This document shows positions 1-5,769 of a stretch of DNA of 64,000 nucleotides, piece after piece (position 1 is the first letter of the stretch; the number at the start of each line of letters is the position of its first letter). Location: the NCBI GenBank assembly GCA_025059995.1, contig JANXCF010000002.1, positions 310,001 through 374,000 on the forward strand, written 5' to 3'. This DNA is from Leptospiraceae bacterium (lineage in GTDB: Bacteria > Spirochaetota > Leptospiria > Leptospirales > Leptonemataceae). The notes beneath the pieces were generated by a model, which saw only the letters and a list, made by a program, of their open reading frames with translations, did not search any database and had not been told where the DNA came from. The translations under genes were made by a program, and so were the position numbers.

Positions 1-48
1 AAGGATTCCGTTATCATTTATTCGAGAATTTTCTTCTTTCATATGTAG
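1..48 (+). CDS. C-terminal tail of an upstream gene (partial)
   Basis: Frame 1 is open from the window edge to a TAG at 46-48 and encodes about 15 residues. The TAG overlaps the GTG start of the next gene (TAGTG), which is typical of translational coupling between co-transcribed genes. Too little remains to suggest a function. The open frame is short enough that it could be chance. Confidence 0.35.
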   Translation, partial: KDSVIIYSRIFFFHM

Positions 49-1163
49 TGGAGTTGCTCCTTTTGATTCCTTTGCCATTTTTGTTTTTGACATTTTTGAA
101 AGTTTTACTAAATACAAGGCTTACGTTTTTTTATCGCTTTGTTGGATATTTTTCTCTTTTCTTGTTCGTAATTACTTTAGTTTCATCTTTAGTGCCTCAT
201 ACTTACAAAACTTTGGTTCTATACGCTATCACTTATATAAATCTGATTAACTTGATGGTAGCTGTTGTCGAAGTTCTAAGACTTTTCTTACAAATAGAAA
301 TTCGAAAAAAATTGGCATATATTTGGTTCGGGATATTGAGTATGATTCCTTTTATCGCAATGGATATTTTGATTACGATTGAACTTCTTTCCTTTCCAAA
401 AACATTTGTATTTGGATATTCTGTTTTTCTTGTTAGTTTTGCTATTCAATTATCAAAGCGAGCTACTCAGCTAAAAGAACTTTATCATCAACAGGAGGTA
501 AGAATCAAACAATCAGAAAAACAAAAACTCAATATTATTTATAATGTTTCCAGTAAATTTCATTCAATGTTTGCCGAGCTGGAAGAAAATATAAAACAAA
601 AAAAGGATCCTGAATCTTCTATATTGAAGACTCAGGTTTTTTTAGAAAGTCTGCAAATCTTAACTTCTCTTGAACAGAAAAAATATATCCCACAACCAGC
701 AAAAATTAACCTAAAAGAAGAGATAGAAAAAATCATACAACTAGTTTTAAGAACTACTAAACAAAAAAAGCATCGAATTCAAGCAGAAATACCATCAGCT
801 TTTTTCTGGATGGATATAAATTTGTTTAAGTTTATTTTATATCATTTGCTAGAAAATGCATTGCTTTACTCTAAAGATGTTGTTGGATGTAATGTGGAAA
901 TCGGAAGTTCTGAAAACCAATATGAAGATATATTGATTCTTAAAATCACTGATAATGGAATAGGGATTGCGAAAGATCAAGTTGATAAAATATTCACTAA
1001 GTATTATCGAGGGCATGACCATTCTATTCCTGGTGCTGGAATTGGTCTTACTTTAGTAAAAGAAGCTGTGGAATTTTTACATGGCACCGTTTCTGTTGAC
1101 TCAAAGCCGTTTTTTTATACGATTTTTGAAGTTCAAATTCCATCACTGAGAGAAGTTCAATGA
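48..1163 (+). CDS. Membrane sensor histidine kinase-like protein
   Basis: 371 aa with a GTG start. The first ~135 residues are strongly hydrophobic, with about five membrane segments. A helical linker follows, then a C-terminal HATPase_c domain with a clear N box (LLENALLYS, N270), G1 box (TDNGIGIA, about 301-308) and G2 box (GAGIGLTLVKEA, about 329-340). The dimerisation helix has no canonical H-E-L-x-x-P motif; only H172 (SSKFHSM) sits near the expected place. ATP binding therefore looks intact, but autophosphorylation on a standard H box is uncertain. The next gene starts inside its stop (ATGA overlap), so the two sensor-like proteins are probably made together. No response regulator is adjacent. 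Confidence 0.8.
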   Translation: MELLLLIPLPFLFLTFLKVLLNTRLTFFYRFVGYFSLFLFVITLVSSLVPHTYKTLVLYAITYINLINLMVAVVEVLRLFLQIEIRKKLAYIWFGILSMIPFIAMDILITIELLSFPKTFVFGYSVFLVSFAIQLSKRATQLKELYHQQEVRIKQSEKQKLNIIYNVSSKFHSMFAELEENIKQKKDPESSILKTQVFLESLQILTSLEQKKYIPQPAKINLKEEIEKIIQLVLRTTKQKKHRIQAEIPSAFFWMDINLFKFILYHLLENALLYSKDVVGCNVEIGSSENQYEDILILKITDNGIGIAKDQVDKIFTKYYRGHDHSIPGAGIGLTLVKEAVEFLHGTVSVDSKPFFYTIFEVQIPSLREVQ

Positions 1164-3064
1164 AATTCAAAAATTTTCTCTTTTTTTTCTTCGTTTTTCT
1201 TTCTTCTACAAATGCCGAAGAATGGAAAATCAGTTTAAAAGATGATAAAGAAAATATAGAACTTCAATCAAAGACGAATTGGAGTGAAATTCAGATACCA
1301 ATTAATTTTGATGAATTCATTACAACAAAATCAAGAGTTGTTTGGTTAAGAAAAGAATTTACGATTGATAAAAATTCCCAATATGCCTTTTTAATTACAC
1401 GTATCAACGTTCCAGTTGAGATCTATTTTAATGAAGTTTTAATCTATGACTCGAATAAACAACATCAAGAAGAAAATATTTTTATATCTTTACCCATGAA
1501 TCTCTATCGAACAGATAACAATGTGATTGCTATGCGCATTTTTCTTGTCCATCCAATAGCAAGTGGTATATATGGCACAACTGAAATAAACGAATTTTCA
1601 AAACTGTATCCAAAATACTTATTTTTTTATACTGAATATTTCATTTTTGCAATTTTAATGATTGGTGTAGGTTTGTTTCTATTGGGGTTTTTTGTTCATA
1701 GCCGGAATGAGATTTTTTCAATATATCTTTCACTTTATAACATTATAATAGGATTTAGCATATTGGGAAGTAGTGAGTTATTATTAAGAGAAGTTCCTTT
1801 TCCAAAATTAATACAATCCTTTGCTTTTTCTCTGTTGATATTTGTTCCTTTTCTTTATCGAAGGTTTTTTCTAAGATACTTATATCAAGAAATTGAAGCT
1901 AAACATTATGATATTGTTATATCTGTATTTTTATTTTTCTTTCTATTCACCATCAATCTTATGGGAGCTGAAAAACTAAAGATTTTAAACTACCTTTGGG
2001 CACCATTATTAGGAATTATTTTTTTGAGTTTTATTTATAAGAAATACTTGAAGATAATTTGGGATTTTCACATAAAGGATTTTGTTTTTTTTGCTTATTG
2101 GTTAATATTTATTTTGTATTTAGTCATTAAAATCTATACCTATGAGTTTTTTGAAACTAACTATTCTCTTTTCGATGAAGTAGGAATGGTATTATTCTTT
2201 TTTCCCTCATTACTTATAGCAATAAATTTTTTAAAGACTCATAGGGAAATCAAAGAGAAAAATCAGAAGCTATTACTATTGGATGTTTTTCAAACGAACA
2301 TCTTTCAATATATTTTGACACTTCTAAAAAAGCCTATTTTGGATTTTTTAACAAATTTACAATCAATGTCTATAAAAGAATCTTCTCCAAATCAAATTCA
2401 AGCCATGATACATAAGCTAAAAGACATGGAAAATCGTCTTAATGATATCCTAGAATTGAGTAGACTTGAAACTATCAAAGAACCAGAGTCTTATGAAGAA
2501 GTTGAATTAAAAGAGTTTTTAGTAGAAATCTTAGGAAAAAAAGAAATTTTTTATACCATCAAAATTGACAAGGATATAAAAATAGAAACCAGTTTAGAAT
2601 TAGTAAACTCGTTACTAGTAAGGTTTTTTGAATTTCCAGGTTTCCAAGGGATAAAGAATAAAAATTTAGTTGTGATAAATGATGAACAAAAAGTATATTT
2701 TCGTTTTTTCTTTCATAGTGAGAATTATAAGATTATAAGTAGAGTTTATAATGTCTTTAAAGAAAAATTGATTGATAATGAGGGTTGGTGGATCTTAGGA
2801 AAAATCATCAAAGAAAATTTGAGAATTTTAGGTGGGGATTTCAATTTAAGGTCAATCCAAAAACACTACTTATTAATTGAGTTTTCTTTTAGGTTCAAAA
2901 ACCAAGAAATCGGAAAAGCCTATTCTTCTCAGAAAAAAAGAAAGAGAGAAGTTCCTTTGGTTTATAGTCTTGCAGAAACAAAACAAAAGATGCTAAAAGA
3001 TCATCAAAGTGAAGATATGCTTTTGCAAAGAATTAAAAACCTATTTAAAAAAAGGATTGCATAA
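1160..3064 (+). CDS. 7TMR-DISM-type sensor with degenerate kinase tail
   Basis: 634 aa. A signal peptide (residues 1-19) is followed by a ~130-residue extracytoplasmic beta-rich domain resembling the 7TMR-DISM extracellular fold, about seven membrane segments (roughly 160-355), and a cytoplasmic tail. The tail looks like a histidine kinase that has lost its chemistry. The position of the H box reads LLKKPILDF, with no His. The N-box equivalent reads NSLLVRFFEF, and the last helix/G-box region (ILGKIIKENLRILGG) lacks the glycine pattern. It overlaps the upstream kinase by 4 bases (ATGA). I infer a receptor that signals by partnering with the upstream protein rather than by its own phosphorylation. 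Confidence 0.65.
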   Translation: MKFKNFLFFFFVFLSSTNAEEWKISLKDDKENIELQSKTNWSEIQIPINFDEFITTKSRVVWLRKEFTIDKNSQYAFLITRINVPVEIYFNEVLIYDSNKQHQEENIFISLPMNLYRTDNNVIAMRIFLVHPIASGIYGTTEINEFSKLYPKYLFFYTEYFIFAILMIGVGLFLLGFFVHSRNEIFSIYLSLYNIIIGFSILGSSELLLREVPFPKLIQSFAFSLLIFVPFLYRRFFLRYLYQEIEAKHYDIVISVFLFFFLFTINLMGAEKLKILNYLWAPLLGIIFLSFIYKKYLKIIWDFHIKDFVFFAYWLIFILYLVIKIYTYEFFETNYSLFDEVGMVLFFFPSLLIAINFLKTHREIKEKNQKLLLLDVFQTNIFQYILTLLKKPILDFLTNLQSMSIKESSPNQIQAMIHKLKDMENRLNDILELSRLETIKEPESYEEVELKEFLVEILGKKEIFYTIKIDKDIKIETSLELVNSLLVRFFEFPGFQGIKNKNLVVINDEQKVYFRFFFHSENYKIISRVYNVFKEKLIDNEGWWILGKIIKENLRILGGDFNLRSIQKHYLLIEFSFRFKNQEIGKAYSSQKKRKREVPLVYSLAETKQKMLKDHQSEDMLLQRIKNLFKKRIA

Positions 3065-3090: not shown

Positions 3091-4392
3091 ATGGATTATG
3101 CAGAAATTAAAATCAATGGTAAGTTCATTAGATTGCCTTTAATTAAAGGTTCAGACGGAAAACAAGCTATAGATATTCGTTTTTTTAATCAAGAGAATAA
3201 TATCACAACTTTTGATACAGCATTAAATAGCACATCCATTGCCAAAAGCCAAATTAGTTATATTGACTCTAAAAATGGAAAGCTTTACTATCGTGGATAT
3301 GATGTAGAGGAACTTGTTGAAAAATCTACATTTGTAGAAGTGGCATTTTTATTGATTTATGGTCATTTACCTACTAAGGAGGAAATGAAGAAGTTCTCTT
3401 TGGAATTAAGTAAGCACTCTATGATACATGAATCCATGAGGCTTTTCTTCGATGCTTTCCCTGGCACAGCACATCCGTTAGCAATCTTGGCTACATTAGT
3501 AACAGCTCTCTCTGCGTATTATCCTTTGTCATTTGAAGAAAACATGAAAAAAGGCATTGATATACGAATCAGATTATTAGCCAAAGTTCGGACATTAGCT
3601 GCTTGGGCATACAAGAAAAGTGTTGGACAACCTATCATATATCCTCGTGATGAATTACCCTACTGCACGAATTTTCTAAATATGATGTTTGCTACGCCTG
3701 CTGAACCTTATCAAGTAGATCCAATAGATGATCGGATACTCAATCAAGTTCTTATACTCTATGCTGATCATGAGATGAATGCTACAACAACAACAGTGCG
3801 GATTGTAGCAAGTGGAAGGGCAAATTTATTTGCATGTATAAATGCTGGTATTTGTTCTCTTTGGGGATCGAGGGAATCTGACGCAAATGTCCCACCAATT
3901 GTGATGCTAGAAGAAATGATTAACAAAAACTTAACTCCAGAAGTATACTTTCGAGATTTTCTCTACGGTAAGAGGCAATTGAAACTCAACAGTTTAGGAC
4001 ATCCAGCTTATGAAACGGAAGATCCTCGTGCCAGAGTCAGCCGAAGGTTGTTTAAAGACTATTATCAATTGAAGTTACAAAAGGATCCCACAATTGCGAA
4101 TGACCCTATTATCAAAAAAGCTTTAGAAGTCGAAGATTATGTTTCTAATCATCCCCTCTTCAAGGAAATGAACTTGTATTTGAATGTAGAGTTTTATTCA
4201 GCGTTGATCTTTAAGCTCTTGGGAATTCCTCCAAAAATGAATAATGTTATCCGAACAATTGGTAAATTACCAGGATGGTTAGCTCATTGGTCTGAGCAAC
4301 GAGAAGATCCGGATCGAAAATCCTATCGTCCAAGGCAAGTTTACGTAGGGAATTTAAACAAAAAGTATATTCCTATTGATGAACGAACATAA
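3091..4392 (+). CDS. Citrate synthase-family protein with altered active site
   Basis: 433 aa, the usual length of a type II citrate synthase, and recognisable from end to end: AKSQISYIDSKNGKLYYRGY near residue 51, LILYADHEMNATTTTVR at 221-237, LGHPAYETEDPRARV at 302-316, LPGWLAHWSEQREDPD near the end. The catalytic positions are abnormal. The family motif WGPxHGGAN reads WGSRESDAN, placing Glu262 where E. coli His264 belongs. The family N-V-D-F-Y reads NVEFYS, placing Glu367 where Asp362 belongs. His304 (E. coli His305) is kept, but the following Arg is Pro. Normal condensation of oxaloacetate and acetyl-CoA seems unlikely. It may be a paralogue with altered chemistry or a regulatory role. 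Start ATG follows AAAGGAAA. Confidence 0.8.
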   Translation: MDYAEIKINGKFIRLPLIKGSDGKQAIDIRFFNQENNITTFDTALNSTSIAKSQISYIDSKNGKLYYRGYDVEELVEKSTFVEVAFLLIYGHLPTKEEMKKFSLELSKHSMIHESMRLFFDAFPGTAHPLAILATLVTALSAYYPLSFEENMKKGIDIRIRLLAKVRTLAAWAYKKSVGQPIIYPRDELPYCTNFLNMMFATPAEPYQVDPIDDRILNQVLILYADHEMNATTTTVRIVASGRANLFACINAGICSLWGSRESDANVPPIVMLEEMINKNLTPEVYFRDFLYGKRQLKLNSLGHPAYETEDPRARVSRRLFKDYYQLKLQKDPTIANDPIIKKALEVEDYVSNHPLFKEMNLYLNVEFYSALIFKLLGIPPKMNNVIRTIGKLPGWLAHWSEQREDPDRKSYRPRQVYVGNLNKKYIPIDERT

Positions 4393-4395
4393 AAA

Positions 4396-5769
4396 TCAAA
4401 TGGTTTTCGAATAAATGGGCTTTTGATCTTTCTTGTTTTCCAAGAAAGCATCAAAAGCCATAGCTACGTTTCTGATTAGAGGTCTTCCATTGGGTAAAAT
4501 CTTTAATTGGTGGTTTTCAATTTCTATAAGCCCATCTTCAATGAGGGGTTTTAATTTTTGAATTGAATTATGGAAATATTCATAAAATTTTATACGATAT
4601 GTTTCTTCAATCTCACTGAAATCTACGTATAAATTACACATAATTTTCAGGATTACGTCCCTTCGAAGGATATCATCGAAGTTCATCTGATAACCATCAT
4701 GAATCGGAAGTTTGTTAAGATCCAGAGTTTTTCGGTATTCTTCTAATCCTTTTTTGTTACGAATATATAAGTTTTGGAATTGTCCTATGGCTGTAATCCC
4801 AAAGGCAATCACATCCATAGAATCTAAAACAGTGTATCCTTGAAAGTTTCGATGAAGTTTTTTTTGCAAAAATGCTTTGGATAATTCATCCTCAGGTTTT
4901 GCAAAATGATCAAGTCCGATATAAATATAACCATTCTCAGTAAGGGTTTCTACGATATTTTTAAAGATTTGGATTTTTTCTAATGGAGAGGGGAGTTTCT
5001 CCAAAGGAATTAATTTTTGGTGCTTCTTTATCCATGGAACGTGAGCATAACTAAAAAACGCCAATCGATCTGGCTTCCATTCTAATATCTTTATTAGATT
5101 GTTTTCATATGAACTTTTAGTTTGATAGGGAAGACCATAGATAAAATCCATATTGATAGAATCAAATCCCAAATCTCGGGCAGAGTAGTATAATTCTTCT
5201 ATGAGTTCAACTGGTTGTATTCGATGGACACTAACTTGAACTTCGTCGTTTATATCCTGAACACCAAAACTTATGCGGTTAAATCCTAAGTTCTTGAGTA
5301 ATTGTAATTGTTCTTTTTTCGTAGTTCGGGGATCAAGTTCTATACTGATTTCAGCGTGAGGATCAATAACAAAGTGCTCTTTGATGAATAAAAAAAGATC
5401 TTCGATTTGATTGAGAGACAAAAAATTTGGGGTTCCACCGCCCCAGTGGAGTTGATGAACCACATGATCACTTTTCAAATAAGACAAAACCAATTCTACT
5501 TCTTTTTTTAAGTATTTCAGATATCGCTCAATGATTTCTTGGTTTTGAGTTATTACAACATTACATCCACAATAATAACATAAGCTCTTACAAAACGGAA
5601 TGTGAAAGTATAACGAAATCTTTGGAGTTACTTTATGAGAACTCAAATATTCAATATACTCTTTTTCTCCAACATCTGAAGAAAAATTCGGAACAGGAGG
5701 ATAACTTGTATACCTCGGACCTGAAACATTATGTTTTTGAACAATCTCTGGATGAATTTCGATCTTCAT
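4396..5769 (-). CDS. hemN: Oxygen-independent coproporphyrinogen III oxidase
   Basis: 457 aa, the same length as E. coli HemN. This radical-SAM enzyme oxidatively decarboxylates coproporphyrinogen III to protoporphyrinogen IX in haem synthesis without oxygen. Seen: RYTSYPPVPNF near the N-terminus, HIPFCKSLCYYCGCN with the CxxxCxxC cluster ligands, the WGGGTPNFL glycine motif, and the C-terminal HemN domain with LHRNFQGYT. The start codon follows the leuA stop with no gap (TAG ATG), so it is translated from the leuA transcript. The haem product fits the cytochrome-dependent respiratory genes at 43-49 kb. Confidence 0.93.
   Translation of the reverse strand: MKIEIHPEIVQKHNVSGPRYTSYPPVPNFSSDVGEKEYIEYLSSHKVTPKISLYFHIPFCKSLCYYCGCNVVITQNQEIIERYLKYLKKEVELVLSYLKSDHVVHQLHWGGGTPNFLSLNQIEDLFLFIKEHFVIDPHAEISIELDPRTTKKEQLQLLKNLGFNRISFGVQDINDEVQVSVHRIQPVELIEELYYSARDLGFDSINMDFIYGLPYQTKSSYENNLIKILEWKPDRLAFFSYAHVPWIKKHQKLIPLEKLPSPLEKIQIFKNIVETLTENGYIYIGLDHFAKPEDELSKAFLQKKLHRNFQGYTVLDSMDVIAFGITAIGQFQNLYIRNKKGLEEYRKTLDLNKLPIHDGYQMNFDDILRRDVILKIMCNLYVDFSEIEETYRIKFYEYFHNSIQKLKPLIEDGLIEIENHQLKILPNGRPLIRNVAMAFDAFLENKKDQKPIYSKTI

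Follow-up and report, generated by a model that had tools for sequence, protein, structure and literature searches.

Citrate synthase is among the best-studied of enzymes, and to our knowledge the three residues that carry its catalysis are regarded as nearly universal. One open reading frame in the 64,000-nucleotide stretch of Leptospiraceae DNA analysed here (the window; all positions are counted from its first letter) encodes a protein resembling this enzyme in all but its active site, which raises the question of what such a homologue does. The initial annotation, made from the window alone, read the gene as a full-length citrate synthase homologue missing two of the three catalytic residues, and proposed a new activity or a regulatory pseudoenzyme rather than decay. 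The follow-up reported here indicates that this paralogue probably senses metabolites or performs new chemistry instead of making citrate.

Fold and active site of the paralogue

The full-length, recognizable fold described in the initial annotation was supported by profile and structure searches. The protein matched PF00285 with 333.6 bits (cut-off 27) over model positions 2–357 of 357, which places it in the citrate synthase superfamily. An AlphaFold2 model built from 26 sequences had the citrate synthase fold with good confidence (mean pLDDT 86.6, pTM 0.87), and type II citrate synthases ranked top when this model was searched with Foldseek (best 7e8n, E 5.1e-33; E. coli 1nxe, E 3.2e-28). 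In length and fold the paralogue is the same as the type II GltA enzymes of E. coli, Hymenobacter (7e8n) and Acetobacter (2h12). With every NCBIfam model for citrate or methylcitrate synthase its score stayed below the curated threshold; the equivalog cut-offs of NF004126 (427.9 vs 505 bits) and TIGR01798 (386 vs 485 bits) were among those missed. With the 2-methylcitrate synthase/citrate synthase II group (PrpC, CitZ type) it has the superfamily in common, but the match is weaker (TIGR01800, 265 vs 421 bits) and the catalytic His is absent. The source genome contains two PF00285 genes, the window paralogue and a canonical GltA (C5:13232-14332, 481.2 bits). The initial annotation had asked whether another gltA exists, and this second gene rules out that the paralogue is the sole citrate synthase of the genome.

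Active-site columns were numbered after E. coli GltA (NC_000913, literature numbering), and residues were counted in 27 full-length and two partial paralogues and in 51 canonical enzymes (Table 1). The alignment bore out the placement of Glu262 at His264, of Glu367 at Asp362 and of the retained His304 at His305, with LWG-SRES-DAN in the window aligned to LWG-PAHG-GAN in GltA, and NVEFYS to NVDFYS. Of the three residues found in active GltA, the window paralogue therefore has His305 and lacks His264 and Asp362. Three further changes, H226 to Y224, R387 to K392 and F383 to R388, had been missed. Position 264 is Glu in 29/29 paralogues and His in 51/51 canonical enzymes, a difference that is not due to chance; His226, Phe383 and Arg387 are likewise kept in all 51. 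The conservation in relatives that the initial annotation proposed to check thus holds for His264, but not for Asp362: this position varies inside the paralogue clade (16 of 27 have Asp, 11 have Glu), so that Asp362-to-Glu is not a family signature and this half of the original argument is weak. Position 305 is His in 25/27 paralogues, with Asn and Gln in the other two. The alignment contained no His that was both invariant and specific to the paralogues, and structural rescue by another His appears unlikely. Judged by its residues and profile scores, the protein is a member of the citrate synthase fold that probably falls outside the active citrate synthases.

The changes are unevenly spread over the ligand-binding sites. 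We take H229, R314, R387, R407 and H226 of GltA to be oxaloacetate ligands, and H110, Y145, R163, K167 and N189 to form its NADH site. H229, R314 and R407 are present in 27/27 paralogues, that of the window included, in which R387 is Lys and H226 is Tyr. Of the NADH-site residues, H110, Y145, R163 and K167 persist, and N189 is Asp in 27/27. The canonical enzymes have 116 invariant sites. At ten of them no paralogue keeps the canonical residue, and the active-site residues H226, H264, F383 and R387 account for four of the ten. Retention is 51% for sites in the acetyl-CoA loops, compared with 73% overall, and only 0.5% of random draws gave a value as low. Phe383 touches the acetyl group edge-on (PMC11167817). 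By this pattern of residue and loop retention, most of the dicarboxylate side of the active site has been preserved, whereas the acetyl-CoA side was remodelled and has since stayed fixed. In sum, the paralogue shares H229, H305, R314, R407 and four NADH-site residues with type II GltA, and differs from it by H226Y, H264E, F383R/Q, R387K, divergent acetyl-CoA loops and an Asp or Glu at position 362.

Table 1 Features of the paralogue locus, in window positions; residue counts refer to full-length paralogues unless stated otherwise
Feature	Position	Strand	Remarks
HK1, 7TM-DISM sensor kinase	1..1163	+	First 765 nt lie before the window; intact HATPase, another residue in place of the phospho-acceptor His
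HK2, 7TM-DISM pseudo-histidine kinase	1160..3064	+	Pfam finds no kinase domain; fold of the C-terminal half resembles histidine kinases
Citrate synthase paralogue, 433 aa, type II GltA fold	3091..4392	+	ATG start; from ORF list, PF00285, AF2 and Foldseek
Tyr224 codon, at GltA His226	3760..3762	+	Tyr in 27/27 paralogues, His in 51/51 canonical enzymes
His227 codon, at GltA His229 (oxaloacetate ligand)	3769..3771	+	Kept in 27/27
Glu262 codon, at catalytic GltA His264	3874..3876	+	Glu in 27 full-length and 2 partial paralogues
His304 codon, at GltA His305	4000..4002	+	Kept in 25/27
Arg313 codon, at GltA Arg314	4027..4029	+	Kept in 27/27
Glu367 codon, at GltA Asp362	4189..4191	+	Asp 16, Glu 11
Arg388 codon, at GltA Phe383 (acetyl-group contact)	4252..4254	+	Arg 20, Gln 7
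Lys392 codon, at GltA Arg387	4264..4266	+	Lys in 26/27

Distribution and descent

The paralogue was found in 29 of 30 genomes of one spirochaete order, a family of which holds Leptonema illini and the source genome of the window, usually beside a canonical GltA; the one genome without it (G011) is 67% complete. A canonical GltA or a fragment of one was present in all genomes of the order except G012, G021 and G028, each at most 77% complete, and thus in every genome more than 78% complete. When 393 genomes of the phylum, these 30 among them, were searched with a profile, the other 363 yielded no paralogue. The two classes were well separated in this search, the lowest full-length paralogue scoring 686 bits and the best canonical enzyme 535 bits. 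Every citrate synthase retrieved from beyond the order has His264. No paralogue-level score was obtained in 398 genomes sampled from the phylum of L003 (Gammaproteobacteria) or in 395 sampled from that of L004 (Bacteroidales); plasmid matches were all below 60% identity, and a scan of genome contigs with a single paralogue protein returned distant canonical enzymes only. The literature searched yielded no paper that reports an inactive paralogue of citrate synthase, describes such a clade or connects the enzyme with 7TMR-DISM kinases, and the Leptospira papers found name single citrate synthase genes only. Elsewhere in the phylum, genome G244 carries two divergent full-length citrate synthases (on C182 and C127; L120 and L121) that keep His264 and branch separately from the remaining long forms in the tree.

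The tree was made with the eight key columns removed. In it the paralogues formed one clade (support 100) on a long stem (0.77), and the basal split of this clade matches the two families of the order, which is what vertical inheritance from the ancestor of the order would produce. A constrained clade of the paralogues and the order's own GltAs was rejected (p 0.0035), which argues against a recent duplication of the order's own GltA. When the GltAs of the rest of the class were added, the constrained clade was not rejected (p 0.205). As read from these sequences, the origin of the paralogue is old, a duplication at or before the class being compatible with the latter test. Between G002 and G003, dN/dS was about 0.067 for the paralogue (dN 0.085, dS 1.26) and 0.034 for gltA. 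Both genes are under strong purifying selection; most other pairs of genomes are saturated at synonymous sites.

An upstream pair of degenerate sensor kinases

Two sensor-kinase genes, HK1 and HK2, precede the paralogue. They overlap by 4 nt, and the HK2 stop codon lies 26 nt before the paralogue start. HK1 consists of a 7TM-DISM-like membrane part and a HATPase domain that scores over its cut-off (62 bits), and in 24 of 25 homologues another residue takes the place of the phospho-acceptor His. The exception (L141:5345-7270, in G022) is the sole HK1 homologue with an intact H-box, NVSHEF, indicating that the H-box of HK1 was aligned correctly. This intact H-box also suggests that the phospho-acceptor was lost within the order, or repeatedly in it. 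HK2 has no recognizable H-box, and its recognizable ATPase motifs are gone: none of 22 members matched a Pfam kinase domain, HATPase_c included, and 15 of the 22 matched 7TMR-DISM_7TM. The predicted C-terminal half of HK2 matches histidine kinases, among them the pseudokinase DivL (4q20). Neither HK1 nor HK2 carries the phospho-acceptor His in an H-box that marks an active histidine kinase. Both share with DivL a kinase-like architecture devoid of this residue; they differ from it in their 7TM-DISM input domains, in their paired genes and in the citrate synthase paralogue that follows them in one family.

HK2 was detected in 26 of the order's 30 genomes, and other members of the class gave no meaningful match, so that the kinase pair and the paralogue have nearly the same order-wide range. 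HK1 and HK2 stay paired in nearly every locus inspected (for example, window 1-3064; L079:9236-13065). Within the Leptonema family, the paralogue starts 15–69 nt after HK2 in 11 genomes of eight genera, distances that rest on mechanically chosen start codons. In the second family the paralogue is unlinked to HK1-HK2 and lies elsewhere, and in G010 and G013 the paralogue is present and HK2 was undetected. The link to the kinases is thus recurrent and not obligatory.

The remaining surroundings were also considered. A gene for the ribosome GTPase RsgA precedes HK1-HK2 at the window locus, and it lies directly before the pair in the Leptonema family (L079:8152-9300, L042, L048, L146 and L147); G010, where the kinases are missing, has RsgA followed 131 nt later by the paralogue. 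On the opposite strand a HemN-like radical SAM gene (4396-5769, -) converges on the paralogue with few bases between the stops. A metabolic operon was set aside as an explanation of the locus: the LeuA, HemN and acyl-CoA dehydrogenase neighbours either are encoded on the other strand or occur in only a few genomes. A scan for promoters and terminators gave nothing above chance.

Possible roles of the paralogue

The paralogue is neither a product of decay nor the genome's citrate synthase. A decaying pseudogene would explain the lost catalytic residues and nothing else; the gene is intact in 27 genomes, dN/dS is ~0.07 and the replacement residues are fixed, so that conservation and selection rule this reading out and leave it virtually no probability. 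The original judgement that the gene is not decaying was therefore sound, the gene being order-wide and its substituted active site frozen. It is very improbable that the protein still makes citrate or 2-methylcitrate with an unusual active site. The fold and the oxaloacetate residues are retained, as is His305 in 25/27, but His264, His226, Phe383 and Arg387 are lost together, and in E. coli GltA the replacement F383A alone lowers kcat by 97%, and F383M by 93% (PMC11167817). The scores below every NCBIfam cut-off and the canonical GltA in the same genome also count against this reading. Somewhat less remote, though still improbable, is a subunit without catalysis of its own that joins hexamers of canonical GltA and adjusts their activity or their response to NADH. 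The type II length and fold, the retention of most NADH-site residues (H110, Y145, R163, K167) and the presence of GltA in the same genomes would agree with such a subunit; against it stand the linkage, which is to sensor kinases and not to gltA, and the tree, in which a clade with the order's GltAs was rejected (p 0.0035), although one adding those of the class was not (p 0.205).

Two readings carry most of the weight, and they are the two between which the initial annotation had left the choice. We consider a ligand-binding regulatory citrate synthase paralogue the most likely, with a probability that we would put near even. An enzyme of new chemistry, to which we give a substantial but minority share, would employ Glu264 and the acidic residue at 362 together with His305 and the arginines that bind oxaloacetate. 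It would act on a 2-oxo acid or on an acyl-CoA other than acetyl-CoA, for example one with a polar or charged acyl group; Arg/Gln383 would then contact the new acyl group. Several features speak for such an enzyme: the replaced residues are invariant, the base position is always acidic, the ligand arginines are conserved, and F383R/Q together with H264E makes the acetyl pocket polar. Because Glu264, Tyr226 and, with one exception, Lys387 are invariant and 362 is always acidic, catalysis also fits, and this counts against the regulatory reading, as do the unlinked paralogues of the second family and the two genomes in which HK2 was undetected. The interchange of Asp and Glu at 362 and the Asn and Gln at 305 in two lineages, on the other hand, argue against precise proton transfer of the citrate synthase kind. 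No metabolic neighbour is consistent order-wide, and the recurrent operon partners are sensor kinases only; this linkage to two degenerate kinases favours the regulatory reading.

Under the regulatory reading, an ancient citrate synthase paralogue would have become fixed in one spirochaete order and lost citrate making, with canonical GltA covering the TCA job in the same genome. Its acetyl-CoA half-site has been replaced by a fixed new set of residues (Tyr226, Glu264, Arg/Gln383 and Lys387), of which the Glu264/Arg383 pair may fill the acetyl pocket, excluding acetyl-CoA and leaving the dicarboxylate site usable. The protein would then bind a dicarboxylate (oxaloacetate or citrate, for instance), perhaps along with a nucleotide in the NADH-type site that it retains, and would not process acetyl-CoA in the manner of citrate synthase. 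HK1 and HK2, which lack the phospho-acceptor His and in many genomes share an apparent operon with the paralogue, would form a membrane unit to which the paralogue, as cytosolic partner, may pass the metabolic state. Only tentatively do we extend the proposal to its full form, a unit specific to the order that includes Leptonema, in which a citrate synthase fold serves as the cytosolic metabolite-sensing part beside two dead 7TM sensor kinases.

A clade with a different fixed set of active-site residues is a natural experiment in which a core TCA enzyme was turned into something else. In genome-scale models of spirochaetes, automatic annotation will enter these paralogue genes as citrate synthase. 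If the paralogue does sense oxaloacetate or citrate, it would offer a handle on how carbon status is coupled to membrane signalling in these bacteria.
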